Shown here in pieces: positions 1-34,715 of a stretch of 36,553 nt of DNA. The number at the start of each line of letters is the position of its first letter. Positions within the stretch are counted from its first letter, which is position 1. The stretch is from an uncultured Luminiphilus sp. (GTDB lineage: Bacteria; Pseudomonadota; Gammaproteobacteria; Pseudomonadales; Halieaceae): assembly GCA_905479205.1 (NCBI GenBank), contig CAJQLP010000228.1, forward strand, positions 1 through 36,553, given 5' to 3'. The translations under genes were made by a program, and so were the position numbers. The notes under the pieces are model-generated. The model was not told the origin of the DNA and made no database searches. It saw only the letters and a program-made list of their open reading frames with translations.

Positions 1-560
1 ATATCGCGCTCCTCGGCCAAGAACACCACGGTTGCCGGATCCCAGCCTGGGTTGTGTAGGCCGTCAGCTCCCCGATTGATGAATTCTTTAGGATCTTCGC
101 GCTTAGACCAATCGGTGCGATAAAGCACCCAGCTACCCTTGGGTATTTCGCCGTGCTGCGCTTCCCACGCTTTCACGAACTCGACGGTCATCAGAAAATC
201 CGCATCAGCGGCGGCTTCAGCGGAAGCGTCGATCACCACAAATGGCGCGACAAAATTTTCCAGAGGCAGCGTGTCGGTAGCGTGATGTTCATGATCTTTA
301 CCCGTAACCCAATGTATCGGGGCGTCAAAATGCGTGCCCGTGTGCTCGCCGCACTTGATGTTGTTCCAGTACCAAGCCGGTCCGCGCTCGTCATAGCGCG
401 AGATTTCTTCCTTGCTAAAGGGCCAAGATTTTTTCCAACCGAACTCTTCGGGCAACTCCAAAATTGGGGTGTCCGCTGCCAGTGTCACGCTCAGGTCGAC
501 AATACGGATGCCACCATTGCTAAGTGCCTGTGCCATTTGAGTGAGCGCATCCGTATTCAT
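1..560 (-). CDS. Cyclase family protein (kynurenine formamidase-like metal hydrolase), C-terminus cut by the window edge
   Basis: Minus-strand reading from ATG at 558-560: MNTDALTQMAQALSNGGIRIVDLSVTL...GEHTGTHFDAPIHWVTGKD..., with the HxGTHxDxPxH metal-binding motif. The frame is open to base 1. Confidence 0.85.
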   Translation of the reverse strand, partial: MNTDALTQMAQALSNGGIRIVDLSVTLAADTPILELPEEFGWKKSWPFSKEEISRYDERGPAWYWNNIKCGEHTGTHFDAPIHWVTGKDHEHHATDTLPLENFVAPFVVIDASAEAAADADFLMTVEFVKAWEAQHGEIPKGSWVLYRTDWSKREDPKEFINRGADGLHNPGWDPATVVFLAEERD

Positions 561-846: not shown

Positions 847-968
847 GCGCTGCAACAGATAGCCAACCCTAATTTTGATACACTAAATCGACGAATAAAT
901 CAGAAAATGTGCGTAATTTCTTTTGCAAGAACCAATCCCCTTACCTCACGACTCATACAGGAACACAC

Positions 969-3062
969 ATGTCACCAGTTGTCAGCTACGCCCTCCACGG
1001 TAACATCGGTGTTATCAGTGTAGACAATGCCCCCGTCAACGCTCTGTCTCATGCGGTTCGCTCGGGTATTGCCGAGGCATTGACCGCTGCCTACTCTGAT
1101 GCATCTCAAGCCGTTATTATCAGCTGCGCGGGTAGAACATTTATTGCGGGCGCGGACATCACAGAATTTGGCAAGCCGCCGCAAGAGCCGTCACTGCCCG
1201 ATCTTCTTGAGCAACTGGATAATCATCCCAAGATCACCGTTGCAGCGCTCCACGGCACTGCGCTGGGTGGCGGATTCGAAACGGCACTCAGCTGTAACTA
1301 CAGAATTGCACTAGCCAGCGCGAAGGTGGGTTTACCCGAGGTGAAGTTAGGCTTGCTGCCTGGCGCTGGTGGTACTCAGCGAGTGCCTCGCCTGGCCGGG
1401 GTTGAGGGAGCCATCAGCCTCATGACAACAGGCAACCCCATTAATGCAAAAAAAGCCGCTGAATTGTCCTTAGTCGACCGAGTGGTGAACGGAGATGACT
1501 TAGTCGCCCAAGCCGTTGCCTATGCCGAAGAACTGGTCGCGGCAAACGCACCTCAAAAGCAAGCCCGCACGGCACAGATAACCCTCACCGACAGCGATCG
1601 CGCAATGTTGAACCAGCAGCGCACCCAGCTGCTGAAGAAAACTCGAGGCGAAACCGCGCCACAACGCATCATCGACTGCATTGAAGCAGCGGCAGAGCTG
1701 GGCTTCGAAGAGGGCCTGCGGCGTGAGCGAGAGTTGTTTATGGAATGCATGGCCGACCCTCAATCCGCCGCCATGCGTCACATGTTTTTCGCTGAGCGTG
1801 CCGCCGCCAAGATCAACAGCTTACCCAAGGATACGCCGATCGTTGATATTCAGCGCGTGGGCATCATTGGTGCTGGCACTATGGGTGGCGGTATCGCCAT
1901 GTGTTTTGCCCAAGTGGGCATCCACGTGACCTTGGTTGATATGAGTGAAGACGCCGTAAAAGCTGGTCTCGACAAGATCGCAAAAAACTATGCCATCAGC
2001 GTCTCTCGAGGTCGTTTCTCAGAGGCGCAGGTGGCCTCCATAATGGCTAACATAACACCTTCCTCAAGCTACCAAGATCTAGCCGAGGTTGATCTCGTGA
2101 TAGAAGCCGTCTTTGAGAACCTCGCGGTTAAACAGGAGGTCTTCAAAACGCTGGACGGCATCTGTAAACCCTGCGCCATCCTTGCCAGTAACACCTCTTA
2201 CCAAAATATTGACGAGATTGCGGCTGCCACATCGCGCCCGAGCAGCGTCCTTGGCATGCATTTTTTCAGTCCCGCAAACGTAATGAAGCTGCTTGAGGTC
2301 GTTCGTGGTGCCGAAAGCAGTGACTCCATCATCGCAACAGCAATGACGGTTAGTAAAAAGATTGGCAAAGTCCCCGTGCTGTCTGGGATGTGCTACGGCT
2401 TCATCGGGAATCGCATGCTGCGGCCCTACTCCCGAGAAGCCGCGCTTTGTCTTATGGAGGGCGCGACGCCTGCACAAATCGATGGCGCTATGGAGCGCTG
2501 GGGTATGGCCATGGGGCCCATGGCCGTCGGCGATTTAGCTGGCCTGGATATTGGCTACAAAGCCCGAGAGCAACTTACTGAAGAGCAAAAAGGAGAGCCG
2601 GCGAGCTATCTGGTTGCAGATCGGCTGGTGGAAGCCGGCCGCTTAGGGCAGAAATCCGGCGCAGGATATTATCAATACGACCCCGAGACTCGACGTCGTA
2701 TGGATGATCCCGCGGTAATGGAAATTGTCGCAGCGACCTGCGCAGAGCTAGGCATCAATCGTCGCACAATCAGTGACGAGGAAATCGTTGATCGTCTGAC
2801 ACTCGCCCTCGCCAATGAAGGCGCAAAAATCCTCGAGGATGGCATTGCCCAGCGGGCCAGCGATATCGACGTTGTGTACTGCTACGGCTATGGCTTTCCC
2901 CGCTTCAAAGGTGGACCTATGCACAACCTAGAGGCCGTGGGTATCCCCCGCGCGGTGGCTCGGATGGAGGAATTTGCCAGCAAGCTGAGTGCACAAAATT
3001 GGCAAACCGCAAAAACCTTGCAGGAACTGAGCACAAACGGCGGCAAGCTGGCGGATGTCTAA
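969..3062 (+). CDS. Multifunctional enoyl-CoA hydratase / 3-hydroxyacyl-CoA dehydrogenase (FadJ/FadB-like)
   Basis: N-terminal crotonase motifs (AGADITEFG, GTALGGGFE, LPGAGGTQRVPR), Rossmann motif VGIIGAGTMGGGIAMCFAQVG, and 3HCDH C-terminal domains. ATG at 969 is preferred over the GTG at 909. Confidence 0.93.
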   Translation: MSPVVSYALHGNIGVISVDNAPVNALSHAVRSGIAEALTAAYSDASQAVIISCAGRTFIAGADITEFGKPPQEPSLPDLLEQLDNHPKITVAALHGTALGGGFETALSCNYRIALASAKVGLPEVKLGLLPGAGGTQRVPRLAGVEGAISLMTTGNPINAKKAAELSLVDRVVNGDDLVAQAVAYAEELVAANAPQKQARTAQITLTDSDRAMLNQQRTQLLKKTRGETAPQRIIDCIEAAAELGFEEGLRRERELFMECMADPQSAAMRHMFFAERAAAKINSLPKDTPIVDIQRVGIIGAGTMGGGIAMCFAQVGIHVTLVDMSEDAVKAGLDKIAKNYAISVSRGRFSEAQVASIMANITPSSSYQDLAEVDLVIEAVFENLAVKQEVFKTLDGICKPCAILASNTSYQNIDEIAAATSRPSSVLGMHFFSPANVMKLLEVVRGAESSDSIIATAMTVSKKIGKVPVLSGMCYGFIGNRMLRPYSREAALCLMEGATPAQIDGAMERWGMAMGPMAVGDLAGLDIGYKAREQLTEEQKGEPASYLVADRLVEAGRLGQKSGAGYYQYDPETRRRMDDPAVMEIVAATCAELGINRRTISDEEIVDRLTLALANEGAKILEDGIAQRASDIDVVYCYGYGFPRFKGGPMHNLEAVGIPRAVARMEEFASKLSAQNWQTAKTLQELSTNGGKLADV

Positions 3063-4713
3063 GGTGACTGCAACAAACCCCATCCCGACATCACCAAGGG
3101 AGGCACTGGCGCAATCGGCGGCGAAGTTTCCTCGTCATGAAGCGCTGCATATTCCGGCCACGGCCTGCGCCCATTACGCTTCTGAGGGGGACGTACCCGC
3201 CGCGATTAGTCTGAGTTACGAGAAACTCGAAGCCGCCGTCACCCGAGGCACAGAAATTTGGGCTGGTACGGGCATTAACGGTCGGGTAGCGCTGGTACTG
3301 GAGAATCGTGTCGATTTTTTTGTCCAGTGGTTGGCCCTGAATGCACTAGGCATCAGTGTTATACCCATCAACCATGAAATGCCCGATGAAGAGATCCCCT
3401 ACTACCTTGAACACGGGGAAGCGGTCGCCATATGCGCGCTCGCTGAACATGTTGAGCGCCTCACGGACATCAGCAGCTCCTTGGAAACGCCGTTACCCGT
3501 GGTTAGCCCCCAGTCGGTAATCGCGCTTAACTTTGGCAAACCGTTATCTGCTCCCCGCATCGAGTTTAGCACCGAGTGTGCGCTGCTCTATACATCCGGC
3601 AGCACTGGCAAGCCCAAGGGCTGCGTGTTAGATAACGACTACTTCATTCAGCAAGGGCTATGGTATCGAAGCCTTGATGGCCACATCAGTCTGCAGGAAG
3701 GAGCAGAGCGACTTCTAACCCCTCTCCCCCTTAGTCACATGAACGCCATGTCGGTATCGACCATGGCCATGCTGATGACTGGTGGTTGCCTCATACAACT
3801 GGATCGTTTCCACCCTTCAACCTGGTGGCGCAGCGTCCGTGACTCGCAAGCTACCGCTCTGCACTACCTCGGAGTGCTGCCCGCCATTCTGCTGGCCCTC
3901 CCCGAGGATGAAGCAGACGATTTTTCTGATCAGATACGCTTTGGCTTTGGCGCGGGGGTAAATCCCGCCCACCATGCACGCTTTGAAAAACGTTTTGGTT
4001 TTCCGTTGATAGAAGCTTGGGCAATGACCGAGTGCGGCGCGGGAGGCGCCATCATTGCCAATAATGAACCCCGTCATGTGGGGCAGTGCTGCTTCGGTAA
4101 ACCCTTGCCCATCATCGAGTGGCAGATGGTGGACGAGGCCAAACAACCCGTTGATAAGGGCGTCCCCGGCGAACTCAGAGTGCGAGCAAAAGGTGCCAAC
4201 CCGCGCAAAGGCTACTTCGCAGGCTACCTAAACAACCCCGAGGCCACCGCCGAGGTCTGGGCTGACGGTTGGCTTAACACCGGTGATGTCGTGGTTGAGC
4301 TAGACGATGGATCACTGGCGTTTGTAGATCGACGGAAAAATATCATTCGCCGCTCCGGGGAGAATATCTCCGCCCTTGAGGTGGAAGCAGCCCTAGCTGA
4401 CCATCCCGCAGTTCACACCGCCGTAGTCACCCCCGTGCCCGACGAAATGCGCGGTGAAGAGGTGGCTAGCTGCATCATACTGAATGAGGGGTTTATCCCC
4501 GATCTTGCAACGGCTAAGAGCATTCAAGGTCACGCGTTGGGCAAGTTGGTGTATTTCAAGGCGCCTGCCTGGTTCATTTTTGCCAGCTCACTACCGGTCA
4601 CCGCATCCAATAAGCCCAAGCGAGCGGACATCAAAGCTCTCGCCCGCACCGCGCTCGAAGATGGATCGGCCATCGATCTACGCCCGCTCAAGAAAAGAAG
4701 CGCCAGCAAATGA
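3055..4713 (+). CDS. AMP-forming acyl-CoA synthetase/ligase (ANL superfamily)
   Basis: LLYTSGSTGKPKG P-loop, EAWAMTECG, GWLNTGD, RRKNIIRRSGENIS and C-terminal LPVTASNKPKR. Overlaps the upstream stop by 8 nt. Confidence 0.92.
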   Translation: MSKVTATNPIPTSPREALAQSAAKFPRHEALHIPATACAHYASEGDVPAAISLSYEKLEAAVTRGTEIWAGTGINGRVALVLENRVDFFVQWLALNALGISVIPINHEMPDEEIPYYLEHGEAVAICALAEHVERLTDISSSLETPLPVVSPQSVIALNFGKPLSAPRIEFSTECALLYTSGSTGKPKGCVLDNDYFIQQGLWYRSLDGHISLQEGAERLLTPLPLSHMNAMSVSTMAMLMTGGCLIQLDRFHPSTWWRSVRDSQATALHYLGVLPAILLALPEDEADDFSDQIRFGFGAGVNPAHHARFEKRFGFPLIEAWAMTECGAGGAIIANNEPRHVGQCCFGKPLPIIEWQMVDEAKQPVDKGVPGELRVRAKGANPRKGYFAGYLNNPEATAEVWADGWLNTGDVVVELDDGSLAFVDRRKNIIRRSGENISALEVEAALADHPAVHTAVVTPVPDEMRGEEVASCIILNEGFIPDLATAKSIQGHALGKLVYFKAPAWFIFASSLPVTASNKPKRADIKALARTALEDGSAIDLRPLKKRSASK

Positions 4714-4777: not shown

Positions 4778-5962
4778 GTGAGGAACTACGAAGGTATCGC
4801 TCTGGTCTGCCCCGTGAGTCTGGGTTATGCCAAACAGAGCTCACACGGCGCCGCCTGGTATGTTGGGTCAGTGCTGAGAGAGATTATACACTCGGCGGGC
4901 ATTGCAAAATCCGACGTTGACGGCCTCGCGGTTTCGAGCTTTTCTCTAGGCGTTGACTCAGCTATCGCGCTCACTCAGCACTTTGGTCTCTCACCCCGCT
5001 GGATAGAACAGGCCAACATGGGTGGCGTGTCGGGAATTGTGGCCCTGCGCAAAGCCGCCAGAGCGGTGCAATGCGGCGAGGCGCAGATCGTGGCCTGCAT
5101 CGGGGGCGATGGTGCTGGTCACCGATCTTTTGAAGCGACCGCCGCCCACTTTTCCAGCTGGAGCATAGACGCTTCCTTTCCCTACGGCGCCGGTGGCCCC
5201 AACGCAGCCTTCAGTCTCATCACCCGCCACTACATGGAAAAGTACGGTGCAAAACGGGAGGATTTCGCTCGAATCGCGGTAGACCAGCGGTACAACGCCA
5301 ATCATTACCCCAAGGCGCTGCTGGGTCACAAACGCCTAAGCACGCAAGACTACCTGCAGGCGCGGCCCATCGCAGGACCGCTGCATTTATTTGACTGCGT
5401 AATGCCCTGTGCGGGGGGCGAAGGATTTCTGATCATGTCAGAGGCCCGGGCGCGCACCCTCAAACTCCCCTTCGTGCGTCTGCTGGCTGCTGACGAGTTG
5501 CACAACGCTCACCCGAAAGACTCAGTTCAAGACCGAGGGGGCTGGACCGAATACATGTCAGCGCTGTACCAGCGCGCCGGTGTGGGACCTGAGGATATCG
5601 ATTTACTGCAGACCTATGATGACTATCCCGTCATCAGCATGATGCAAATTGAAGATCTGGGATTCTGCGAAAAAGGCGACGGACCCAGGTTTGTGCAAGA
5701 AACCGATATGCGTTTCGATCACTCAGGCGCCCCGTCGCGCAAACTGCCTCATAACACCTGTGGCGGTCAATTGTCTTGCGGGCAGGCTGGATCTGCCGCG
5801 GGCTATCTGGGGCTCACCGAGACGATTCGTCAGCTGACCCACACCGCCGGAAGCAATCAGGTCCCTCGGGCTCGCCACGGCTTAGTGAGTGGCTATGGCA
5901 TGGTCAACTATGATCGAGGTTTATGTAGCGGTGCCGCGCTACTGGCGAGGGGTGACGCATGA
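4778..5962 (+). CDS. Thiolase-fold protein of the lipid-transfer/SCP2-thiolase-like class, probably non-thiolytic
   Basis: GTG start gives MRNYEGIALVCPVSLGYAKQSS...; thiolase-like core with NMGGVSG, LFDCVMPCAGGEGFL, QTYDDYP and CGGQLSCGQAGSAAG. The listed ORF from 4484 is an N-terminal over-extension. Confidence 0.85.
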   Translation: MRNYEGIALVCPVSLGYAKQSSHGAAWYVGSVLREIIHSAGIAKSDVDGLAVSSFSLGVDSAIALTQHFGLSPRWIEQANMGGVSGIVALRKAARAVQCGEAQIVACIGGDGAGHRSFEATAAHFSSWSIDASFPYGAGGPNAAFSLITRHYMEKYGAKREDFARIAVDQRYNANHYPKALLGHKRLSTQDYLQARPIAGPLHLFDCVMPCAGGEGFLIMSEARARTLKLPFVRLLAADELHNAHPKDSVQDRGGWTEYMSALYQRAGVGPEDIDLLQTYDDYPVISMMQIEDLGFCEKGDGPRFVQETDMRFDHSGAPSRKLPHNTCGGQLSCGQAGSAAGYLGLTETIRQLTHTAGSNQVPRARHGLVSGYGMVNYDRGLCSGAALLARGDA

Positions 5963-6504
5963 ATTTAAAGGAAAAGATGCAGCGCCGGCTGAAGCTGAGC
6001 CGACCTTCACTGCGAGCACGAGCCCGTCCTCCCAAGCACCGAACGACGTTAGGAGCTCAGTTCACCGCCGCCAATCTATCCACGGCGCTGGCGCTGCAGC
6101 ATTGCAAGAGCTGTGGACACACCCAGTACCCACCCACTGAACTCTGCGGTATCTGCCTTGAAGACCAGTTGATCTACCAACCGGCCGATGGCGCGGGGGT
6201 CATACTGGCGAAAACCGAGCTCCATCACAGCCTGTGGGAATACTTCAAACGTCGGCTGCGCCAGGGATCCTGGCCTTTGTGCTCAGTTGCGCTGAACTCG
6301 GGGCCCGAGGTCATTGCCCACTTGGGTTCTGATCACCTCAAGGCCGGCGATCCTGCGCGGGTGTTCAGTCACACGGACGCCTCCCAACAGGCGGTCTTGA
6401 TTGCGGTCGATGCCAACGTCGATGTTTCCTACCCCGAGGCTAGGCGTGAAATTGTTTCAGCGATGAACCTCGATATCCCCGCCATCAAAGAGGATGGTCT
6501 ATGA
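5959..6504 (+). CDS. DUF35 / OB-fold acyl-CoA-associated protein with zinc ribbon
   Basis: CKSCGHTQYPPTELCGIC rubredoxin-like zinc ribbon followed by an OB-fold-like segment. ATGA overlap with the thiolase-like gene, a usual DUF35 partner. Confidence 0.85.
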   Translation: MNLKEKMQRRLKLSRPSLRARARPPKHRTTLGAQFTAANLSTALALQHCKSCGHTQYPPTELCGICLEDQLIYQPADGAGVILAKTELHHSLWEYFKRRLRQGSWPLCSVALNSGPEVIAHLGSDHLKAGDPARVFSHTDASQQAVLIAVDANVDVSYPEARREIVSAMNLDIPAIKEDGL

Positions 6505-7235
6505 ATCTCACACACGAACATATTGTTGTCACTGGGGGCAGTACGGGTATTGGCGCGGCCATCTGTGACGCTTTTCTTGCTCAGGGGCTGTCGGTTATCA
6601 ACCTGTCACGACGCCCGCTGGAGCGCGCCAACGACCGGTTGCTCAACTTGGAATTAGACCTCAGCGATCGCGCGGCAACCGAGCGTGTGGCACAGGATAT
6701 TGCCAGTCGGTTCTCGGTGACCGGACTCATTCACAACGCGGGCTTGATTCGAGCGGATCTGGTCGAAGATGTAAAGCTGGATGACTTAGACTATTTGAGT
6801 CAGGTTCACATTGGCGCAGCTATTACCCTGACTCAAGCGTTTATCCCGGCAATGAAGGCTGCGGGTTTTGGTCGCATTGTGCTGATTACTTCCCGCGCCG
6901 CTCTTGGGCTGCAAACCCGCACCAGTTATACCGCGACCAAAGCCGGAATGATGGGCATGGCGCGAACTTGGGCGCTGGAACTGGGCGCCTTTGGCATCAC
7001 CGTCAACACAGTAGCTCCCGGGCCCATCCAAGATACAGAAATGTTTGCGGCGGTCATTCCAGAGGGAAGTGAAAAGATTCCCTCTATGGCAGCTAGCATT
7101 CCTGTGAAACGACTGGGCCGGTCGTCTGACGTTGCCAACGCGGTATGTTTTTTAGCCGCTGGAGAGTCGGGCTTTATAACCGGCCAAACCCTAATGGTTT
7201 GCGGTGGAGCCAGCCTTGGCTCACTGAGCCTTTGA
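6501..7235 (+). CDS. SDR-family NAD(P)-dependent oxidoreductase
   Basis: VVTGGSTGIGAAI (TGxxxGxG), NAG, and S...YTATK catalytic motif (SRAALGLQTRTSYTATKAG). ATGA overlap with the upstream gene. Confidence 0.93.
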   Translation: MNLTHEHIVVTGGSTGIGAAICDAFLAQGLSVINLSRRPLERANDRLLNLELDLSDRAATERVAQDIASRFSVTGLIHNAGLIRADLVEDVKLDDLDYLSQVHIGAAITLTQAFIPAMKAAGFGRIVLITSRAALGLQTRTSYTATKAGMMGMARTWALELGAFGITVNTVAPGPIQDTEMFAAVIPEGSEKIPSMAASIPVKRLGRSSDVANAVCFLAAGESGFITGQTLMVCGGASLGSLSL

Positions 7236-7252
7236 CCTCGGAGGGCAAGCTT

Positions 7253-8611
7253 TTGAATCGAGTACCCGACAGAAATTTTGACGCGCTTGTAACACCCACT
7301 CGCATCCACCGGAGTCTTTACACTGATCCAGCGCTATTTGAGCTCGAAATGGAGCGTATCTGGGGTCAGTCCTGGATTTTTATAGGTCACGAATCCCAGG
7401 TACCCAACCCCGGGGATTTCTTCACGACCCACGTAAACCACAACATTCCCGTGGTCATGATTCGTGACAAAGACGGCAGCGTTAACGTTCTACACAATCG
7501 CTGTGGCCACAAAGGCGCCAAAGTTGTGGAGGCGCGCTCCGGCACCGTGCGCGGGGCGTTGCGCTGCGGCTATCACGGATGGAGCTACCGGTTTGACGGC
7601 TCTCTGCTGAAAATTCCCAACGAAAAAGGGTATGAAAACACCGGCTTCGACCCCCAGTCCGCCTGCTACAGCATGCAGCGACTCGCCCAGGTAGACAGTT
7701 ACCGGGGCTTTGTATTTGCAACCCTGTCCAGCGACGCTCCGACGCTACAAACGTGGATGGGCGGCGCGAGGGAATGCTTTGACAATCTCTGTGACCGAGC
7801 CCCCGAGGGCGAAGTGGAGGTTGCGGGGGGCGTTCTGCGCTATGAACACGAATGTAACTGGAAGTTCATTCTTGAAAACTTGAACGACACCATGCATCCC
7901 ATGGTCGTTCACGAATCGGTGGTCAAAGCAGCCGAGCAGTACATCGCCACACTGCCCGACGATGCGGTGAATGAGCGCAGAGAAGCCGAGATTATTCCAC
8001 CCTTTGGCGCGAGCTATGAAAAGTTTGAAGACTCGGGGATAACGGGCTTCGACTACGGGCACCATTACGACGGCGGTAAAACCAGCATTCATGCGGATTA
8101 CTCGGTTGATCCCGAGTATCATGCGGCGATGATCGCCTCCTATGGAGAAGAGCGAACCCGAGAGATTTATGCGTTTAACACGCACAACGTCTGCTTTTAC
8201 CCCTCTCTCACCATTAAATGCGCTGTCCAAAATATCCGCGTCATTCGCCCCATCAGCGTTGGTCGATTCATTGTCGAGACCTGGTCGTTCCGACTCAAAG
8301 GCGCCCCAGACAGTATGCTGCAGCGAACGCTACTGTACTCACGATTAATTAATTCTTCGATGGGTATGGTGGGCCCGGACGATCTCGAAGTTTATCGACG
8401 CACCCAGGAGGGCTTGGCATCACCGTCTAATGATTGGGTCGAATTCCACCGTCAATATGGCAAAGATCAGCAACTGCCTGATCGGGTGGTGGGCGGCGGC
8501 ACTTCAGACCTGGACATGCGCACCCAATACCGTGCCTGGAAAGCCTACATGGAGGGATCAATTTTCTCTGCTAAAAGATCCGAGCGAGCCTCTATGGGGG
8601 AAACACAATGA
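7253..8611 (+). CDS. Rieske aromatic-ring-hydroxylating dioxygenase, alpha subunit
   Basis: Rieske CxH...CxxH (RCGHKGAKVVEARSGTVRGALRCGYHGWSY) and mononuclear iron motif NDTMHPMVVH. TTG start at 7253 preceded by GGAGGG; the 7145 start overlaps the SDR. Confidence 0.92.
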   Translation: MNRVPDRNFDALVTPTRIHRSLYTDPALFELEMERIWGQSWIFIGHESQVPNPGDFFTTHVNHNIPVVMIRDKDGSVNVLHNRCGHKGAKVVEARSGTVRGALRCGYHGWSYRFDGSLLKIPNEKGYENTGFDPQSACYSMQRLAQVDSYRGFVFATLSSDAPTLQTWMGGARECFDNLCDRAPEGEVEVAGGVLRYEHECNWKFILENLNDTMHPMVVHESVVKAAEQYIATLPDDAVNERREAEIIPPFGASYEKFEDSGITGFDYGHHYDGGKTSIHADYSVDPEYHAAMIASYGEERTREIYAFNTHNVCFYPSLTIKCAVQNIRVIRPISVGRFIVETWSFRLKGAPDSMLQRTLLYSRLINSSMGMVGPDDLEVYRRTQEGLASPSNDWVEFHRQYGKDQQLPDRVVGGGTSDLDMRTQYRAWKAYMEGSIFSAKRSERASMGETQ

Positions 8612-9117
8612 ATCAGCGACAGGCCGTTGAGGACTTTCTATACCACGAAGCCAGCTTGTTGGACCGTCCCGATTTGGATACATGGGTTTCATTATTTACC
8701 GAGGACGGTCGTTACTGGATGCCGGCAGCCGAGGATCAAGCCGATCCCATTAACCACATATCCCACGTTTATGACGATCGGGTCATGATGGAGATTCGTC
8801 GACGTAATTTTGTCCACCCGAGGGCCTCATCAAAAGATTGGCCGGTTCGGTGCTCCCACCTCATTGGCAACATCAGAATACACATTGACCCCAGTGCAGA
8901 CAGCTCTGCACCAGACAGCGGGTCAGCGACCGGCGATGTGCTCACGGTGACATCCAACCAACACGTCGTCGTTTGGTATCGCGATGAACAGCGGGTTTAC
9001 GCCTATCGAGGCACGCACCGACTGCTATGCGCGGGGAATCAATTCGCCATCAGAGAGAAGCGCGTCGACCTCATCAATCCCGACGCGCCACAACGATCCC
9101 TGATCATTTATTTGTGA
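8608..9117 (+). CDS. Rieske dioxygenase beta (small) subunit, SnoaL/NTF2-like fold
   Basis: MNQRQAVEDFLYHEASLLDRPDLDTWVSLFTEDGRYWMPAAEDQ... is typical of dioxygenase small subunits. ATGA overlap with the alpha subunit. Confidence 0.92.
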   Translation: MNQRQAVEDFLYHEASLLDRPDLDTWVSLFTEDGRYWMPAAEDQADPINHISHVYDDRVMMEIRRRNFVHPRASSKDWPVRCSHLIGNIRIHIDPSADSSAPDSGSATGDVLTVTSNQHVVVWYRDEQRVYAYRGTHRLLCAGNQFAIREKRVDLINPDAPQRSLIIYL

Positions 9118-9308: not shown

Positions 9309-9343
9309 CTGTGGCTGTTAAGAAACGCTGGAGGCAACGCCGC

Positions 9344-10528
9344 ATGGCCGCAAATACCCGCTGGAAAAAACTCGATTGGGAAGACCCCTTTGAACTCGAT
9401 GCACTGCTCACCGAGGAGCAACGCATGGTGCGCGACAGTGCGCGACAGTACGCCCAAAACGAGCTCGCGCCCCGTGTGAAGGAAGCCTTTCGAGAAGAAT
9501 CCACGGACCCAGGCATCTTCCGGGAAATGGGAGAAATGGGCCTATTGGGTCCCACCATCGAAGGCTATGGCTGTCCTGGCGTTGACTACATTTGCTATGG
9601 ACTCATTGCTCGGGAAGTGGAGCGGGTCGACTCGGGTTATCGCTCCATGTTGAGCGTGCAGTCGTCCCTTGTCATGTACCCTATCTACGCCTACGGCAAT
9701 GACGCTCAGCGCGAGAAGTACCTGCCCAAGCTGGCCACGGGGGAGTGGATTGGCTGCTTTGGTCTGACCGAGCCCGATCATGGTTCTGATCCGGGCAGCA
9801 TGGTCACTCGCGCCCGCAGCACCGAGGGCGGCTACCGCCTCACGGGCGCCAAGATGTGGATATCCAACAGCCCGTTTGCGGACGTCTTTGTTGTCTGGGC
9901 AAAAACCGACGATGACGTCATCCGGGGATTCATCCTGGAAAAGGGCATGGACGGCCTCAGCGCCCCCAAGATTGAAGGCAAGCTGGCATTGCGCGCTTCA
10001 ACCACGGGCGAAATCGTTATGGACAACGTTTTCGTCCCCGAGGAAAACCTGCTGCCCAATGTGCAGGGACTCAAGGGGCCTTTCGGCTGCCTAAACAACG
10101 CGCGCTATGGCATTGCCTGGGGGGCACTGGGAGCCGCTGAAACCTGCTGGCACACTGCTCGCCAGTACACCTTAGATCGAACACAGTTTGGGCGTCCGCT
10201 GGCATCGAATCAGCTGATTCAGTTGAAGTTAGCCGACATGCAAACTGAAATTGCACTGGGCTTGCAGGGTTGCTACCGAGCAGGGCAGCTATTGTCAGAC
10301 GGCGAAATATCCCCCGATCTCATCAGCCTGATCAAGCGCAATTCCTGTGGCAAAGCCCTTGATATCGCGCGCAAGGCAAGGGATATGCTAGGCGGAAATG
10401 GGATATCTGATGACTACCCCGTCATGCGACACATGATGAACTTAGAAGTTGTGAACACCTACGAGGGTACCCATGACATCCACGCCCTGATTCTGGGCCG
10501 CAGTCAGACAGACATACCTGCATTTTGA
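9344..10528 (+). CDS. gcdH: Acyl-CoA dehydrogenase, glutaryl-CoA dehydrogenase-like
   Basis: [27 protein letters not shown]...[17 protein letters not shown]...[17 protein letters not shown] is strongly GcdH-like. ATG at 9344 has a GGAGG upstream (9330-9334). Confidence 0.9.
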
Positions 10529-10862: not shown

Positions 10863-11390
10863 TCAAAGAGGATCCGCGGACTCGGCGGAAGGATCGTCAA
10901 GAGCATCCACCAACTCATGGAGCAGCTCATAAAGCTGGGTAAGATTTTTAGCACCAAACCGACTCTCAATGTAATCGTACCGTGACTCAGATTCCGGCGC
11001 GATCTGCGCAATCACGTTTAAACCTTTGTCGGTGATCGTAACCAGCGACCTGCGACTGTCACGCTCACAGGGTCGGCGACCAATAATCCCTCTGCCCTCA
11101 AGATTCTGCACGATTCGGCTAACGCTGGGTCTGAGCAGCGAGCACGCATCTGCCAACTCACTGACATCAAGCGCGTCAACTTCAGCAAGCGCACGCATCA
11201 CGCGCCATTGCTGAGTGGAGAGGTCGTGTGCGCGCAGGTGCGGTATAAAAGTTCTTAGCACCGCCTCATGGGCCTTAAGAAGACTCATGGGTAATGAGCG
11301 ATCGAAGCGACGTAAGTTAGTAAGGGGGTTAGTGCGCTGGCCGCTTTTGTTTTTAGCGTTACTTAATTTCGTTTTTGATGACGAAGTCAT
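10863..11390 (-). CDS. MarR-family regulator (HpaR-like)
   Basis: Winged-helix pattern LSTQQWRVMRALAEVDALDVSELADACSLLRPSVSRIVQNLEGRGIIGRRPCERDSRRSLVTITDKG. Confidence 0.88.
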   Translation of the reverse strand: MTSSSKTKLSNAKNKSGQRTNPLTNLRRFDRSLPMSLLKAHEAVLRTFIPHLRAHDLSTQQWRVMRALAEVDALDVSELADACSLLRPSVSRIVQNLEGRGIIGRRPCERDSRRSLVTITDKGLNVIAQIAPESESRYDYIESRFGAKNLTQLYELLHELVDALDDPSAESADPL

Positions 11391-11752: not shown

Positions 11753-13195
11753 ATGCAATCTCTATTAAGCGCCACCCCAAATGATAGGCCGTTACCTAGA
11801 GCCCTGGACTTATTGACAAGCCTCCAGGAAGGTAGCTTGAGCGCTGAGGCACTGCTCAATCAGACTTATCAAACCATTGAACGCTGGAACCCAGCGGTTA
11901 ATGCCATATGCACGCTACTTCCATTGGAGGCGGTACAGGGCCAAGCTCGCGAGATTGATCGTTTGCGCGCGCGGAGCCAACCTGTCCCACCACTGGCAGG
12001 GATTCCCATTGCGGTTAAAGATCTTGCGGCGACCGCAGGTATAAGAACCACCCTAGGGACTCCATTGATGAAGGATAACGTCCCAGCGACGGACTGCTTA
12101 TTGGTGGCAAGGCTGCGAGCGGCGGGCGCCATTATTATTGGTAAAACTAATACCCCAGAATTGGGCGCTGGATCTCATACCTTCAATCCCATTTTTGGGA
12201 CCACACGAAATCCCTATAACTTTGATCTCATTGCTGGAGGCAGTAGCGGTGGTGCCGCAGCGGCACTGGCGACGGGGATGCTCTGCTTGGCAGATGGCAG
12301 CGACATGGGGGGCTCACTCCGCAACCCTGCCGCCTATTGCAATGTAGTGGGAATGAGACCAACCATGGGGCGCATACCCACTTGGCCACAGGTATCAAGC
12401 CGCTTCGCGCGCATGGCCGTTGAAGGACCGATGGCGCGAACCGTGGAAGACTGCACGCTACTCCTCCGATTACTGTCGGGCCCCGATGCTCGTGACGCGC
12501 GTTCGCTACACGATAATCACGGCATCGACGAGCACCTTCTTGAAAGAGACACAAGAGGGGTTCGAATTGGCTGGTCAGCCGCCCCCGCGGGATTAGCTAT
12601 GGAGCCCGCATTGAGGTCACTGCTCGAACAGGTACCCGAAACCTTGGCGCGCTTGGGCAGCGAGGTGGAGGCCACGGCACTGACCGAACTTCTAGGCGCC
12701 ATGGATGTGTTCAAAACCTTGCGAGCCGCTGCCTACGCCATGCTCGCAGGTGACCTCTATCAGCGGGGACATCAGGAGATGAAGCCCACGCTCACAGAGA
12801 ACATCAAACTAGGGTTTGAACAAACCACTAGCGACATTTACACGGCAGAAAAAGCCCGTACCGCCATGACCGCTGCGCTCGCGGAGCTATTCGAACGCTA
12901 TGACTACTTGGTCATGCCCACCACTCAGGTAATGCCTTTCCCCGTTGAGTTGGAGTATCCCTCCGAAATTGACGGAGAGCCCATGCACAGCTACATAGAT
13001 TGGATGGCGGTATGTTGTATCCTTAGCCCGTTCGACGTGCCCTGCGCCTCGGTACCCGCTGGCTTCAGCACAGAAGGTATTCCCTTTGGCATTCAAATTG
13101 TAGGTCGACCTGGGGATGATCAAGGGGTGATGCAAATGGCCTACGCCTGGCAACAGCAGACCCAACATTGGCGCACGCCACCAACGCTGGGTTAA
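11753..13195 (+). CDS. Amidase-signature family hydrolase
   Basis: GIPIAVKDLAATAGIRTTLGTPL (catalytic Lys) and AGGSSGGAAAALATGMLCLADGSDMGGSLRNPAAYCNVVGMRPT (Ser-cisSer region). Confidence 0.92.
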   Translation: MQSLLSATPNDRPLPRALDLLTSLQEGSLSAEALLNQTYQTIERWNPAVNAICTLLPLEAVQGQAREIDRLRARSQPVPPLAGIPIAVKDLAATAGIRTTLGTPLMKDNVPATDCLLVARLRAAGAIIIGKTNTPELGAGSHTFNPIFGTTRNPYNFDLIAGGSSGGAAAALATGMLCLADGSDMGGSLRNPAAYCNVVGMRPTMGRIPTWPQVSSRFARMAVEGPMARTVEDCTLLLRLLSGPDARDARSLHDNHGIDEHLLERDTRGVRIGWSAAPAGLAMEPALRSLLEQVPETLARLGSEVEATALTELLGAMDVFKTLRAAAYAMLAGDLYQRGHQEMKPTLTENIKLGFEQTTSDIYTAEKARTAMTAALAELFERYDYLVMPTTQVMPFPVELEYPSEIDGEPMHSYIDWMAVCCILSPFDVPCASVPAGFSTEGIPFGIQIVGRPGDDQGVMQMAYAWQQQTQHWRTPPTLG

Positions 13196-14685: not shown

Positions 14686-16218
14686 CTAGGAAAAAGGAGC
14701 GTTCCACTGCTCGCGCAGTAGTTTTTTCTGTATTTTACCCATAGCATTTCGTGGCAATGACGCCACCACTTGAATCGTCTTCGGCACTTTAAAGCTCGCC
14801 AGCTTGTCCTTGAGCAATATTTTGATGTTGCCCTCATCCAAGTGCGCATCCGCCAACGGCACAATGGCGGCAACCACCGTTTCGCCAAAATCTGGGTGAG
14901 GAACCCCAAAAACCGCTGATTCTTGGACCCCCGGCAGTTCATTCAGTACTAGCTCAACTTCTTTGGGATAGACGTTGAGGCCGCCAGTGATGACCATATC
15001 TTTTGAGCGCCCCACAATACTGAGGTAGCCGCGATCATCAATGCGACCCTGGTCACCCGTCACAAACCACTGATCTTCAGTAAAGTCCTGAGCGGTTTTT
15101 TCAGGCATTCTCCAATAACCTTTGAAGACATTGGGACCTCGAACTTCGATCTCGCCAATTTGTCCCACGGAGACGGGATGATGCTGCAGGTCACATACTC
15201 TGATCTCCACCTCCGGCAAGGGGAAGCCAACAGTCCCCGCGCGTCGCTCGCCTATGAGCGGATTAGAACAATTCATTCCAGTCTCACTCATACCATAACG
15301 CTCTAGGATCGTGTGGCCGGTGCGTTCGGCAAAGCTCGCAAAGGTCTCCTCCAGTAGCGGCGCGCTCCCAGACACAAATAAGCGCATGTTTTGGCAGTCA
15401 GCGCGCCCAAAGGACGCTTCGGCGAGCAAGCGGGTATAGTAGGTTGGCACACCCATCATGACCGTCGAAAGGGGTAATAACTCGCGCACCTTGTTGACCT
15501 CGAGTTTCGGCAGCCAGTGCATAGAGGCGCCGCTCATTAGCACGCAATGAATCCCCACAAAGAGTCCATGAACGTGGTAAATGGGCAAGGCGTGGAGCAA
15601 AACATCCTGCTGGGTGAAGCCCCATGACTCCACCAGCACCTCCGCATTGCTACGCAGGTTTTTGTGAGTCAACATGATGCCTTTGGGTCTACCGGTCGTA
15701 CCCGAGGAATACAGCAGCACCGCTAGGTCGTCGTCGGTGCGCAACTCAATGTCTACATCGGGCTCTGATTGCCGATATTGCTCCTGCAGGGACCCTTCAC
15801 CATTAGCATCTAAGGTCATCAAATGTGGTGTACCCACCTCGGCACACAGCTGGCTGTAACTATCGAGCTTACTGGGGTCACAAACCAGTAAGCTGGGCTC
15901 TGCGTTACTCAAAAAATACTGCATTTCATCGAGTGCATAAGCCGTATTCAATGGGTGATAGACCAAGCCTGCGCGCAACACACCCAGGTACAACCAAAGA
16001 TTGGTAACCGATTTTTCTACCTGTACGCTAACCCTATCCCCCGGCTGTAGTCCTAGGCGACGCAACAAGGCAGCCATGCGGGCAGACTCACGCTCCATAT
16101 CCCCAAAGCTGTACTCCTGACCGGCAAGATCTCGCAATAAAACCTTTTCCGCATCCGGTGAGCGTGCTGCAATGGCAGCATAAAAATTCACGTTTGCCAC
16201 GTTATCCTCCACTGGCAT
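14686..16218 (-). CDS. Malonyl-CoA synthase-like acyl-CoA synthetase (MatB-like)
   Basis: LLYSSGTTGRPKGIMLTHKNL, ERYGMSETGM, WFVTGDQGRID, LPRNAMGKIQKK. The N-terminus (GDRVSVQVEKS...LRAGLVYHPLNTAYALDEMQYFLSNAEP) is MatB-like. Confidence 0.85.
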   Translation of the reverse strand: MPVEDNVANVNFYAAIAARSPDAEKVLLRDLAGQEYSFGDMERESARMAALLRRLGLQPGDRVSVQVEKSVTNLWLYLGVLRAGLVYHPLNTAYALDEMQYFLSNAEPSLLVCDPSKLDSYSQLCAEVGTPHLMTLDANGEGSLQEQYRQSEPDVDIELRTDDDLAVLLYSSGTTGRPKGIMLTHKNLRSNAEVLVESWGFTQQDVLLHALPIYHVHGLFVGIHCVLMSGASMHWLPKLEVNKVRELLPLSTVMMGVPTYYTRLLAEASFGRADCQNMRLFVSGSAPLLEETFASFAERTGHTILERYGMSETGMNCSNPLIGERRAGTVGFPLPEVEIRVCDLQHHPVSVGQIGEIEVRGPNVFKGYWRMPEKTAQDFTEDQWFVTGDQGRIDDRGYLSIVGRSKDMVITGGLNVYPKEVELVLNELPGVQESAVFGVPHPDFGETVVAAIVPLADAHLDEGNIKILLKDKLASFKVPKTIQVVASLPRNAMGKIQKKLLREQWNAPFS

Positions 16219-16229
16219 ACAGCTAATAT

Positions 16230-17345
16230 TTATCGAATGTTGGCCAGCAACGGCTTGGCGGCATCAATCGCCGCTTGCTGATGGGGCTGCAGTTCTTGTC
16301 CGCCTAACCCCGCATGCATGGGCAGGAAGGGGTCTTCGGTCCCACTGCTAATGCCTGAGAGCGTCTCCATAACTGCCAGGCCAAAAAATGGCACCGTCCA
16401 ACTGTTGTAACCGCCCTCGTGGGTCATCAGTAATTTGCCACCGCAGTGTCTATCCGCGGCAGACAAGAGTTTCTGGGTGAGACTTCGGTAGCCATCACTG
16501 TGCATTTGCATGCGGCCAAGGGGATCGTAGGCGCCTGCATCAAAACCGCTGGGGACAATAATTAACTCCGGTTTGAAGGCATCTAAAGCGGGAAGTATCA
16601 CTTGATCAAAAGCGGCCTCATAGGCGCCCACACCCGAACCCGGAGGCATGGGTATGTTGAGGTTGTAGCCCTGTCCTAACCCCTCACCATTCTCGTGGGT
16701 GTAGCCGGAATCAGGGGGAAAGCAGTTGTCCTGATGAATGGAGATCGTCAGTGCGCGCGGATCATCATAGAACGCACTCTGGGTGCCATTGCCGTGGTGA
16801 ACGTCCCAGTCCACGTAGGCGATGCGCTGTAGTCCAAAATTGTCGAAGGCGTGCATTCCCGCCAGGGCAGCGTTACCAAAAATGCAGAAGCCCATGCCCT
16901 CCCCCGCTATGGCATGGTGACCGGGTGGACGCACCAAGGCGTAAGCGTTGTCGACTTCACCTTTCAATATCGCCTCTAGCGCCGCCAAAACGCCGCCAAC
17001 GGACAGCATTGCGATCTCGTAACTGCCCCGCCCCGCTGGCGTGAAAAACCCCGCGTCGCCACCGGTATCGGCGCTGATTTGCTTCACGTTCTCCAGATGT
17101 TCTACGGTATGAAATTTCAGCACCTCCGCCTCGGTCGCCATCCGAGGCTTGATGTGGTGCAAATGCTCATTCATCCCAGCCACTTCCAGCAAGTTCCTGA
17201 AGCGCCGCTTGGTCTCTGGATTTTCGGCGTGTACATCGGGTTGCACGGGGTTACCAAAGGGCATCGGGCCGGCGAAATTGCCGGTGTCGTGCCACATGTA
17301 AAGCTCGTGGCAAACCAATCCAGTGCGTCGTTTCGACAGGTTCAT
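16230..17345 (-). CDS. Class II histone deacetylase-like / acetylpolyamine amidohydrolase family deacetylase
   Basis: RPPGHHA, YVDWDVHHGNGTQ, SGFDAGAYDPLG, LMTHEGGYN: HDAC-superfamily active-site motifs. Confidence 0.92.
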   Translation of the reverse strand: MNLSKRRTGLVCHELYMWHDTGNFAGPMPFGNPVQPDVHAENPETKRRFRNLLEVAGMNEHLHHIKPRMATEAEVLKFHTVEHLENVKQISADTGGDAGFFTPAGRGSYEIAMLSVGGVLAALEAILKGEVDNAYALVRPPGHHAIAGEGMGFCIFGNAALAGMHAFDNFGLQRIAYVDWDVHHGNGTQSAFYDDPRALTISIHQDNCFPPDSGYTHENGEGLGQGYNLNIPMPPGSGVGAYEAAFDQVILPALDAFKPELIIVPSGFDAGAYDPLGRMQMHSDGYRSLTQKLLSAADRHCGGKLLMTHEGGYNSWTVPFFGLAVMETLSGISSGTEDPFLPMHAGLGGQELQPHQQAAIDAAKPLLANIR

Positions 17346-17439: not shown

Positions 17440-18948
17440 TTACCCTGCGTGAACAGGTGGACGTTGGTTGAAGCCGCCTACCGCTCGCTCCACGTCACTT
17501 GCAATACTGAACAGCAACGCATCTGCACCCACCGGTGCTGACAACATCACGCCAATAGGTAGGCCGCTTTCGCTCATTCCCAAAGGCAGCGACACCGAAG
17601 GCTGACCCGTCATATTGTACAAATGCGTAAAGGCTGCAACTCGCTTAAAACGCTGGGTATAACGCTGCAAATCATCGCCATCGCGATAAGTGATAGTGCC
17701 AAGCTCCGGCGCCGGGGTGGCAGTAACCGGTTGTAGCACCAAGTCGTAGCGCTGTTGGAACTGCCCCATCTGTCGGCCGAGGTAATGCATATGCTCAAGT
17801 GCAGCGGCAACACTAGAACCGGTAAGACCCGAGCCTTCGCGCCTAATCATGTGGGTCATAGGCTCCAGCTCTTGCTCGAGAATGGGCCGTCCGCGAGTCT
17901 GCTCTACGTAATCCAACCAGGCCGTCATACTCGAGACCATCAACACGTTCTGGGTCTGATTCAATTGGTCGTAATCAATACCAGGGGCTGCCTCCTCCAC
18001 GTGATGGCCCATCGCCTGCAACATCGACGCCGTCTCGCGAACGGCCCGCGCCACATCAGGATGAATATCAACCGCGGGTTCGGTTAGGTTCAGCGCCACT
18101 CGCAATGGCTTGCAGGGCGTCAATGTCGCTGCAAAAAAGCCTGATGTCGCCAAGCCAACACCATAAGGCGCGCCAGGCTCATAGCCTGAAATCGCCTCCA
18201 GCATCACAGCGCTGTCGCGCACAGAGCGCGTGACCACGTGACCCACAGACATGCCTGCACCAGAACCACCGGGGGTCAAGCCCCGAGTCGGTTTAAAACC
18301 AAAGACGCCGCAGTGGTTGGCGGGAACGCGAATGGAGCCACCGCCATCGGTGGCGTGGGCCATGGGAATAATCCCCGCGGCTACCGCTGCGGCAGATCCC
18401 CCACTCGAGCCGCCTGTACTGTGGGCGAGGTTCCAGGGATTTTTGCAATCTCCAAGGTGTGCGCCTTCAGTGGTTAAGGCCATACCAAACTCGGGTGTAT
18501 TGGTTTTACCGAATACAATGACGCCAGCGTCACGGAAGCGCTGCACCATGGTCGAATCCTGCGTCGCCACCACATTCTTCATCAGGGCAGAACCACCGCT
18601 GGTGACGGTTCCCTTGAGCTCTACACTTAGATCCTTTAACAGAAATGGAACGCCGGCGAAGGGACCTTTCGGCTGATAATCCGCGAGCTCTTTTCTCGCT
18701 CGCTCTATGTGATCCTGAGCCAAGAGATTTAACTGCGGGTTAACCTGATCGAGGCGGCGTATCGCTTCGTCCAACAATTCCTGAGCACTTGCCGTACCCG
18801 AATTCACCCAGTGCCCCATGGTGAGGGCATCAGCGTCATCCCAGGAATCGGCAACACCAACACGCGCTTGGGTTGCAGGTATGTGACTGGCTGCAGCGCT
18901 CACTGCAGCCAACTGTAACAGCGCCCTTCGGCTAAACGTCACGCTCAC
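17440..18948 (-). CDS. Amidase-signature hydrolase with predicted Tat signal peptide
   Basis: N-terminal MSVTFSRRALLQLAAVSAAASHIPATQA (SRRxLL twin-arginine motif). Amidase core FLLKDLSVELKG and STGGSSGGSAAAVAAGIIPMAHATDGGGSIRVPANHCGVFGFKPTRG. Confidence 0.9.
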   Translation of the reverse strand: MSVTFSRRALLQLAAVSAAASHIPATQARVGVADSWDDADALTMGHWVNSGTASAQELLDEAIRRLDQVNPQLNLLAQDHIERARKELADYQPKGPFAGVPFLLKDLSVELKGTVTSGGSALMKNVVATQDSTMVQRFRDAGVIVFGKTNTPEFGMALTTEGAHLGDCKNPWNLAHSTGGSSGGSAAAVAAGIIPMAHATDGGGSIRVPANHCGVFGFKPTRGLTPGGSGAGMSVGHVVTRSVRDSAVMLEAISGYEPGAPYGVGLATSGFFAATLTPCKPLRVALNLTEPAVDIHPDVARAVRETASMLQAMGHHVEEAAPGIDYDQLNQTQNVLMVSSMTAWLDYVEQTRGRPILEQELEPMTHMIRREGSGLTGSSVAAALEHMHYLGRQMGQFQQRYDLVLQPVTATPAPELGTITYRDGDDLQRYTQRFKRVAAFTHLYNMTGQPSVSLPLGMSESGLPIGVMLSAPVGADALLFSIASDVERAVGGFNQRPPVHAG

Positions 18949-23422: not shown

Positions 23423-24457
23423 TTATTGGATCAATGAACGCACATTTTCTCGATAGGCCTGGGGCGTTTCACCAACCCATGCTCTGAACGCCCGACTGAA
23501 AGCGCTCAGTTCTGAATAACCCAATTCATAGGCGATCTCTGTTAACGAGGCAGAGGAATTAGCCAACAGGTATTTCGCGCGACGCTCGCGTGCAAGGCTT
23601 TTCGCCTCTTGGAATGTGTAGCCCTCATCAGCCAATCTTCTTCGAAGCGTTCTTGGCGATATGCTAAGCCGACCCGCTATGGTGTCCGAATCAGCATTCT
23701 GCAGGCTGTCCTCCAACATAATCTGTCGACAGACGGTACTCACAAATTCATTTTTGTGCTCACCCAAGGAAAAGTAGGTTTCCATGGCGTTACTCAGAAT
23801 TTTGAACAGCAGCTTGTTGCTCGTTAAAAACGGCTCTTCTAAGTACCGCGGGTGAAATCGAATGGAGTTACTGTCAGCGCCAAAGGTTAGCTGACAGTTG
23901 AAGAACGACCGCAAAACCGCTTCGTCGCTTGGCTCTGCGTGCTGAAAAGTCACCTCGAGCAGAGGCACCTGCTTGCGGGTTGCCGTCGCAAGGGTCTGCA
24001 CCAAAAACGCCATAAGATAATCGTTGAGCTGCACTAGCGTGGCACCGCCCTCATGAAGCAGATCTGCGGTAAATTCAGTAGGGGATGTGCGGGGATAAAA
24101 GGCGGTTTTTATGCCTGAATCTATGTGCCGATCATAGACATTCAAAAAGCGAAGGCCCTCACCCACGGTCGGCGCAGCCAGCATCGCAACGATCAACAAG
24201 CTGCTCGATTCATAGTGAAAGTTTTGGCCCATGGACAACCCCATGGTGGGATTCTGTGTGATCGCAGCCGCACCCTCAAATAGGTTGGCTACGGCTTCAA
24301 CGGGCAGCGCAGTGTCGTATTCTTCTTTGGAATTAAAATCGATGCCACAGGCGTCAAAGACCGGCGCTGGATTGACGCCTCGGTCCATAAGATAGTCGCG
24401 GACATAGGCCGCAAAGCGCGGAGAAAGACTGGGGGTGAACCCGCTTGCACCGGGCAT
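23423..24457 (-). CDS. AraC-family transcriptional regulator (OruR/ArgR-like, arabinose-binding-type N-domain)
   Basis: C-terminal AraC HTH: IAGRLSISPRTLRRRLADEGYTFQEAKSLARERRAKYLLANSSASLTEIAYELGYSELSAFSRAFRAWVGETPQAYR. Confidence 0.92.
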   Translation of the reverse strand: MPGASGFTPSLSPRFAAYVRDYLMDRGVNPAPVFDACGIDFNSKEEYDTALPVEAVANLFEGAAAITQNPTMGLSMGQNFHYESSSLLIVAMLAAPTVGEGLRFLNVYDRHIDSGIKTAFYPRTSPTEFTADLLHEGGATLVQLNDYLMAFLVQTLATATRKQVPLLEVTFQHAEPSDEAVLRSFFNCQLTFGADSNSIRFHPRYLEEPFLTSNKLLFKILSNAMETYFSLGEHKNEFVSTVCRQIMLEDSLQNADSDTIAGRLSISPRTLRRRLADEGYTFQEAKSLARERRAKYLLANSSASLTEIAYELGYSELSAFSRAFRAWVGETPQAYRENVRSLIQ

Positions 24458-24466
24458 TGGGGAGCC

Positions 24467-25045
24467 TCACTCCGCCGCAGGAGGCACTTGGGAGTAATAG
24501 GCGCCTAACGCTGCCATTGCGGTGGGATCTAAATCCTTTACCACGTTGACCATCAACGGATGGTAACGCAGCCCAGACTTGAACCCCGCGAGTTGGGCAG
24601 CAATGTAAGCAGCGTTTTGTCCGGCCAATATTGGCCACTCGTCCGCCACCGGCGCGCCCTGCATGCCGTGGCAGGCGTGGCAATAACCGGCCCTGTTACG
24701 GCCCTCTTCCACCATAGTTTGATCGCCATTGGCAGCAGTGAGCCTAGGTTGCGCGGCGTACCAAGTCGCCAGCTCCGCAATGTCAGCATCGCTCAGTGCG
24801 GCCGCCATACCATTCATCACCGCGTTGTTACGATCGCCGCTGCGGTAGGCTTTAAGCTGAATTTCTAAATAGGTTTCGTGTTGCCCAGCCAAATTAGGCC
24901 AGGCTGGATCGGTGGATTTACCGTCGCTGCCATGGCAGGCCGCACAGCTAGCTAAGGCTGCGGGCTCCGCCCAACTGACCAGACTGAAAAACACCGCGAA
25001 CACCAATGCGACTGTCGTGCGTAACCCATTCTTAACATTGAGCAT
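24467..25045 (-). CDS. Di-heme c-type cytochrome (c4-like), exported
   Basis: Two CxxCH motifs (CAACHGSDG, CHACHGMQG); start at MLNVKNGLRTTVALVFAVFFSLVSWAEP gives a signal peptide. Confidence 0.88.
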   Translation of the reverse strand: MLNVKNGLRTTVALVFAVFFSLVSWAEPAALASCAACHGSDGKSTDPAWPNLAGQHETYLEIQLKAYRSGDRNNAVMNGMAAALSDADIAELATWYAAQPRLTAANGDQTMVEEGRNRAGYCHACHGMQGAPVADEWPILAGQNAAYIAAQLAGFKSGLRYHPLMVNVVKDLDPTAMAALGAYYSQVPPAAE

Positions 25046-25055
25046 TTTTGGCTCC

Positions 25056-25493: not shown

Positions 25494-25499
25494 TGCGCC

Positions 25500-28347: not shown

Positions 28348-28401
28348 AAGAACGCCTCTTTGTCTTTCAGCGCCGAGCGATCTAACACTCGGCACCAAAT
28401 A

Positions 28402-29823: not shown

Positions 29824-30031
29824 TACGTTTCCTCTACGTAGTGGCTGCCCTCGCTTGGCCGCCTAGTTATTTATCTCTTAACGCAGGAGCTTTCGCTCCC
29901 CCTAGCCGTCTTTGTGGCCCGGCCCTTTCCGTAACATGTTACACAGTCTAGTCAGTTCCCAGCCCAATGCCTAGTGTCAACAACAGCTGTCAACATATTG
30001 GCCGATAACACCTATTCCTAAGCCCAACCCC

Positions 30032-33118: not shown

Positions 33119-33120
33119 AA

Positions 33121-33642: not shown

Positions 33643-33654
33643 GATACTCGCCTG

Positions 33655-34694: not shown

Positions 34695-34715
34695 TGATCA
34701 TTCCCCCAGTAACAA

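Follow-up and report, generated by a model that had tools for sequence, protein, structure and literature searches.

The window analyzed here, the whole 36,553-nucleotide stretch, carries on its plus strand a FadJ/FadB-like hydratase-dehydrogenase (909..3062), an AMP-forming acyl-CoA ligase (3055..4713), a thiolase-fold protein (4778..5962), a DUF35-only protein (5959..6504), an SDR dehydrogenase with intact TGxxxGxG and YxxxK motifs (6501..7235), the alpha and beta subunits of a Rieske oxygenase (7145..8611, an open frame whose true start is probably near 7235, and 8608..9117), and an acyl-CoA dehydrogenase (9311..10528). On the minus strand lie an isatin hydrolase (PF04199; 3..560), recognized by Pfam, BLAST, and PDB matches and cut by the contig end, and a HpaR-like MarR regulator (10863..11390). 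The thiolase-fold protein has a GTG start and 394 amino acids; a longer reading frame, starting with ATG at 4484, would share sequence with the ligase gene, and the homologues also begin near 4778.

BLAST matched every core gene to the known pathway of aerobic indole-3-acetic acid (IAA) degradation: the ligase, thiolase-like protein, DUF35 protein, SDR, Rieske alpha and beta subunits, and isatin hydrolase correspond to IadF, G, H, J, D, E, and I, respectively, and iadF, H, I, J, D, and E are thus co-located with iadG. The SDR at 6501..7235 matches IadJ and not the SDR half of IadH. Identity to the iad proteins of Paracoccus, Sulfitobacter, and Ruegeria pomeroyi DSS-3 is 48 to 56% for IadG, 46 to 50% for IadF, 47 to 52% for IadJ, 48 to 51% for IadI, and 41 to 43% for IadD. 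The nearest annotated relatives of IadG are encoded on plasmids of Paracoccus, Sulfitobacter, Roseibium, and Neorhizobium (53 to 56% identity). Two of these plasmid loci, read whole, have the order (PDR/VanB reductase, in Paracoccus), Rieske alpha, Rieske beta, AMP ligase, thiolase-like protein, DUF35-SDR, cyclase, SDR. Gene types and their order correspond to those described as iadCDEFGHIJ for auxin degradation (PMC9613470, PMC10374108, PMC12633357). The same gene set as in the window is found in R. pomeroyi DSS-3, for which IAA degradation has been demonstrated by test (PMC9613470). Relatives of the window at 72 to 80% identity belong to Halieaceae, including Luminiphilus syltensis NOR5-1B. 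From its sequence, we identify the locus as the iad locus of a Halieaceae/Luminiphilus-like marine bacterium, so the gene context, which the first-pass annotation did not recognize from a characterized pathway, is a known one.

The genome (83% complete) was searched for an IadC reductase, and none was found. The MarR regulator is a doubtful counterpart of IadR, since it is nearer to HpaR. The FadB/FadJ-like gene and the acyl-CoA dehydrogenase gene, the latter kept at the locus in Halieaceae, flank iad in this family only, with 70 to 91% identity among its members; their products might shorten longer indole acids.

Two proteins bear on the substrate. The Rieske alpha subunit is 46% identical to IadD of PDB entry 7YLS, and its best PDB matches are 9o71 and 7YLS/8H2T (E ~1e-131; next family, 1e-48). 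The paper on the IadD/E structure (PMC10374108) cites entry 7YLS, and the IadD residues it lists agree with the numbering of that entry. The window protein matches IadD at all nine residues of the IAA pocket and at the ligands of the iron and the cluster. Of 71 aligned sequences, a count that takes in the query structure and the window, 66 retain the core pocket, leaving aside position 211, which is Leu or Gln. The cyclase (3..560) has isatin hydrolases as its best PDB matches (1e-62). Elsewhere, Rieske alpha subunits with an altered IAA pocket (NIHHFQKRYD, NVHHFQKRYD, or NLHHNHHRYD) occur in the iad-like loci L024 (1193-2650, minus strand), L034, L042, L057, and L068 and possibly act on another substrate.

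The same contig carries a TTQ aromatic amine dehydrogenase gene set (23423-31846, minus strand). The heavy chain (27151-28398) has aromatic amine dehydrogenase 2h3x as its best PDB match (5e-41; methylamine dehydrogenase, 1e-23), and the set also comprises a light chain (25500-26021), MauE, a thioredoxin-like protein, cytochrome c, a phenylacetaldehyde-dehydrogenase-like protein, a sodium symporter, and a QhpR-like regulator. Of the related genomes, all 8 that have IadG but only 2 of the 49 that lack it encode a heavy chain (Fisher, 2.7e-8, kinship ignored). This co-occurrence fits the idea that aromatic amine dehydrogenase could supply IAA from tryptamine; together with iad, the set would give a route from tryptamine through IAA to isatin. 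The same island holds a phenyl counterpart of the indole branch, with phenylacetyl-CoA epoxidase genes paaE, D, C, and A and a 3-oxoadipyl-CoA thiolase gene (32015-36551, minus strand). Two amidase-signature proteins are encoded near iad (11753-13195, plus strand, and 17440-18948, minus strand), and our guess is that they hydrolyze indole-3-acetamide or amide conjugates. A gene for a malonyl-CoA-synthase-type ligase adjoins one for a histone-deacetylase-family protein at 14686-17345 (minus strand).

IadG is recognizably a thiolase relative (Pfam Thiolase_C_1, 4e-30; Thiolase_N, 4e-7), and its AF2 model (pLDDT 87) retrieved thiolases and thiolase-like proteins in Foldseek. At the position of the nucleophilic cysteine of thiolases (CxS/CASG), however, it has Gly83 (codon GGC, 5024..5026, plus strand; N80-M-G-G83-V-S-G86), the equivalent of Gly89 of CtSal, and the histidine of the GHP motif is replaced by Gln336 (G-Q-A; codon 5783-5785). 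Both substitutions, with their residues and coordinates, had been read correctly in the first-pass annotation. Other marked residues are a YDDY motif (Tyr280-Asp281-Asp282-Tyr283; 5615..5626, plus strand) and the pair Gln331...Gln336 (5768..5785, plus strand), which corresponds to Gln347 and Gln352 of the steroid aldolase Sal. We aligned the window protein with 38 homologues from 80 fetched loci, retrieved by peptide patterns outside the active site, to give 39 rows. Gly82, Gly83, Tyr280, Asp281, Asp282, Tyr283, Gln331, and Gln336 were invariant in all 39, and the invariance of Gly83 and Gln336 argues that their presence is not decay; the conservation of Gly82, Gly83, and Gln336 goes well past what chance would give. 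The R. pomeroyi protein likewise has Gly83, YDDY, Gln331, and Gln336. Invariant cysteines do occur in IadG, namely Cys207 and Cys211 (FDCVMPC). Gly-Gly at the cysteine site is also found in Sal, Ltp2, PDB 4u4e, and a paralogue in the same genome, L002, which indicates that loss of the cysteine is typical of the DUF35-associated thiolase-like class. Peculiar to the IadG family is the combination of YDDY (280-283) with Gln336. Paralogue L002 itself (G000:C86:21133-22146) is thiolase-like and has YDCF and HxHP. Related proteins occur in many genomes of the same genus, which suggests a further thiolase-fold enzyme that lacks the cysteine.

The gene downstream (5959..6504, plus strand) overlaps iadG by ATGA and encodes a zinc ribbon and an OB fold, with zf-ChsH2 above the Pfam gathering score, which bears out the DUF35 pairing noted at first pass. 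The Cys4 zinc-ribbon motif (C49, C52, C63, and C66; 6103..6156, plus strand) is invariant. This protein, probably a structural partner of IadG, is thus an adjacent zinc-ribbon/OB-fold DUF35 protein of the kind that accompanies Sal and Ltp2, and its model (pLDDT 93.6) best matches the DUF35 chains of Sal-Shy (9MYR) and then Ltp2-ChsH2 (6OK1). It corresponds to the N-terminal part of the fused IadH of other loci. The SDR half of fused IadH is still recognizable as a member of its family, with adh_short matches in all 25 proteins scanned. TGxxxGxG, however, is present in 0 of 51 sequences, all of which carry Asp at its second position, and the Tyr and Lys of YxxxK never occur together in the 51; IadJ of the same loci has both catalytic motifs in 71 of 71. 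The SDR half is absent from the window, its Halieaceae relatives, other gammaproteobacteria, and Alcaligenes. The simplest reading of these sequences is that IadH would be the DUF35 partner of IadG and its SDR half a pseudo-enzyme. A 2025 preprint inferred from annotation that IadG is a ketothiolase and IadH an alcohol dehydrogenase.

The nearest solved relative of IadG is Sal (PDB 9MYR) by profile (3e-69), and the same entry ranked first in Foldseek (TM 0.85). In the tree, IadG forms a clade (100/100) whose sister is Sal (92/92); IpfD and Ltp2 branch elsewhere. The models and profiles of IadG and of the DUF35 protein independently match the Sal complex, so both subunits point to one heteromeric aldolase class. 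Mutagenesis showed that Sal cannot do without Tyr302, nor Ltp2 without Tyr294 (PMC12329534). Sal, which reads YDCY, also requires Cys304, whose replacement by Ala, Ser, or His abolished activity and for which Gln347 and Gln352 are the proposed support, while the catalytic pair of Ltp2 is Tyr294 of YDHF and Tyr344 (PMC12329534). Our alignment equates the invariant Tyr280 with the first tyrosine and puts Asp282 at the Cys304/His296 position. The second catalytic residue, whether Cys304 of Sal or Tyr344 of Ltp2, is missing, with Asp282 and Gln336 in its place, so that IadG counts as an orthologue of neither enzyme; of the two catalytic tyrosines of Ltp2 it has only one. We regard IadG, by its active-site residues, as a third variant of the DUF35-partnered thiolase-fold aldolase type, beside Sal and Ltp2. 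The likeness to Ltp2-type enzymes proposed in the first-pass annotation therefore holds for Gly-Gly, the DUF35 partner, and the first of the catalytic tyrosines it suggested looking for, but the closest relative is Sal, the second tyrosine gives way to Gln336 (Sal also has Gln there), and YDxx has Asp in third place rather than Cys or His. Its reading of a retro-aldolase that would act with DUF35 on a beta-hydroxyacyl-CoA, with no thiolysis, is still the one best supported by sequence, fold, and pathway logic.

Given an iad locus, the likely substrate is dioxindole-3-acetyl-CoA and the likely products are isatin and acetyl-CoA. Variovorax converts IAA to anthranilate; IadCDE and IadJ yield dioxindole-3-acetic acid, at the metabolite level, and this acid accumulates when iadF, G, H, or I is lost (2025 preprint). 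By orthology, IadDE and IadJ of the window would likewise convert IAA to dioxindole-3-acetic acid, and IadF would make its CoA thioester. Dioxindole-3-acetyl-CoA is a beta-hydroxyacyl-CoA, its tertiary C3-OH beta to the thioester carbonyl, and the complex of IadG with the DUF35 protein would cleave the C3-CH2 bond by a retro-aldol reaction. We propose that Tyr280, as base, takes the C3-OH proton while the Gly83 backbone holds the oxygen; the bond would then break to give isatin, and the acetyl-CoA enolate would be protonated, probably via Asp282 backed by Gln331/Gln336, by analogy with Sal. Neither a cysteine nucleophile nor free CoA would be needed for cleavage. IadI would then open isatin to isatinate, toward anthranilate. 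Taking the analyses together, we consider it highly probable that IadG-IadH(DUF35) carries out this retro-aldol cleavage of dioxindole-3-acetyl-CoA to isatin and acetyl-CoA in the iad pathway as proposed.

Several observations sit less comfortably with this reading. Asp282 is an unproven replacement for Cys304/His296, the oxyanion-hole Gln161 of Sal is Pro141 in IadG, and the 83%-complete genome yielded no IadC reductase. In addition, the product seen in Variovorax is C8H7NO2 (dioxindole level), two hydrogens above isatin (C8H5NO2) (2025 preprint), which requires side reduction of isatin or other chemistry. It carried four ring deuteriums only, as did all downstream intermediates (2025 preprint); this fits isatin reduced by another enzyme and disfavors cleavage before IadJ. 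A retro-aldol reaction of the 2,3-diol before IadJ, considered as a source of C8H7NO2, would keep the C2 deuterium (five rather than the four reported) and is disfavored. A joint reading, in which IadG has a third active-site type (Tyr-Asp rather than Tyr-Cys or Tyr-Tyr) and would release isatin and acetyl-CoA directly, IadH carries a pseudo-enzyme as its dehydrogenase half, and the published ketothiolase and alcohol dehydrogenase assignment is wrong, seems to us reasonably likely.

Alternatively, the locus could be an iad-like paralogue for another arylacetic or 2-arylpropionic acid, working as the ibuprofen ipf cluster does by ring dioxygenation and retro-aldol release of an acyl-CoA. That cluster is made up of the same gene types (Rieske alpha/beta, ligase, thiolase-like, and OB-fold/DUF35), a retro-aldolase has been described for its cleavage step, and phenylacetate (paa) genes in the window and the FadJ and acyl-CoA dehydrogenase genes adjoining the cluster could be taken to favor such a substrate. 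IpfD, however, is only 30% identical to IadG and reads YDAF and GHLSGFY, the window's Rieske subunit retains the entire IAA pocket of IadD, and an isatin hydrolase gene makes sense for an indole substrate only. We consider this alternative unlikely, and on the IpfD identity, YDAF, and the Rieske pocket we rejected the idea that the locus is an ibuprofen cluster.

The published assignment, with IadG as ketothiolase and IadH as alcohol dehydrogenase, has in its favor the database annotation and the preprint's inference, the two invariant cysteines of FDCVMPC, and the accumulation of C8H7NO2 in Variovorax iadI mutants. Against it stand the absence of the nucleophile-site Cys and the GHP His from all 39 proteins, the lack of TGxxxGxG and of the Tyr/Lys pair in the SDR half of 51 of 51 IadH sequences, and the omission of that half from gammaproteobacterial and Alcaligenes loci. 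A thiolase, moreover, requires a beta-keto thioester. In dioxindole-3-acetyl-CoA, C-beta bears a tertiary alcohol, which cannot be oxidized to a ketone before the chain is removed, so the chemistry does not suit a thiolase. On residues and substrate chemistry together we rejected a canonical thiolase, and we judge the ketothiolase assignment very improbable. That IadG is a catalytically inert thiolase-fold scaffold of the complex, as loss of the canonical thiolase residues might suggest, is hardly credible, given active-site residues that are invariant and show no drift, an iadG deletion in Variovorax that blocks anthranilate formation and accumulates dioxindole-3-acetic acid, and no other good candidate for C-C cleavage among the enzymes of the locus.

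The iad pathway and its genes are already known, and iad loci decide whether root microbes leave or remove auxin; side-chain cleavage is the step of the pathway for which annotation has been the only basis for naming the enzymes. In the open-licence literature we found no report of an aldolase role of IadG, of the Tyr-Asp variant, or of a non-catalytic IadH, and a report in a subscription journal is possible. If IadG-IadH is an aldolase, the step would acquire a specific reaction, isatin rather than a reduced product, and defined residues, and a dehydrogenase would be unnecessary for it. Steroid-type DUF35 aldolases would also be extended to a plant hormone and to marine bacteria.

Among characterized systems, the iad loci of Variovorax, Achromobacter, Bradyrhizobium, and Ruegeria pomeroyi share the gene set of the window, with DUF35 directly downstream of IadG, and their IadG has the same invariant GG, YDDY, and GQLSxGQAG residues. 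They differ in order (CDEFGHIJ, compared with I(-)...F-G-H-J-D-E in the window), and the window has an IadH that is DUF35 only and the added FadJ and acyl-CoA dehydrogenase genes. The IpfD/IpfE pair for ibuprofen (Rhizorhabdus wittichii pIBU218) follows the same logic, in that a Rieske-made OH lies beta to a CoA thioester and a thiolase-like/OB-fold pair removes acyl-CoA, but IpfD (30% identity, YDAF) is on a separate branch of the tree, and its partner, of 132 amino acids, has no Cys4 ribbon. Ltp2-ChsH2(DUF35) (PDB 6OK1) shares with IadG the thiolase fold with DUF35, Gly-Gly, and the first catalytic tyrosine (Tyr294); at 28% identity, it differs in YDHF instead of YDDY and in having the second catalytic Tyr344 where IadG has Gln336. 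The best match in profile and fold, for both subunits, is Sal-Shy(DUF35) of Comamonas testosteroni (PDB 9MYR). IadG and Sal are about 30% identical and act on different substrates, with Asp282 for Cys304 and Pro141 for Gln161 in IadG, and the DUF35 partner of Sal is fused to a MaoC hydratase whereas that of the window stands alone, but the two have in common Gly-Gly at the cysteine site, the catalytic tyrosine, and both glutamines.
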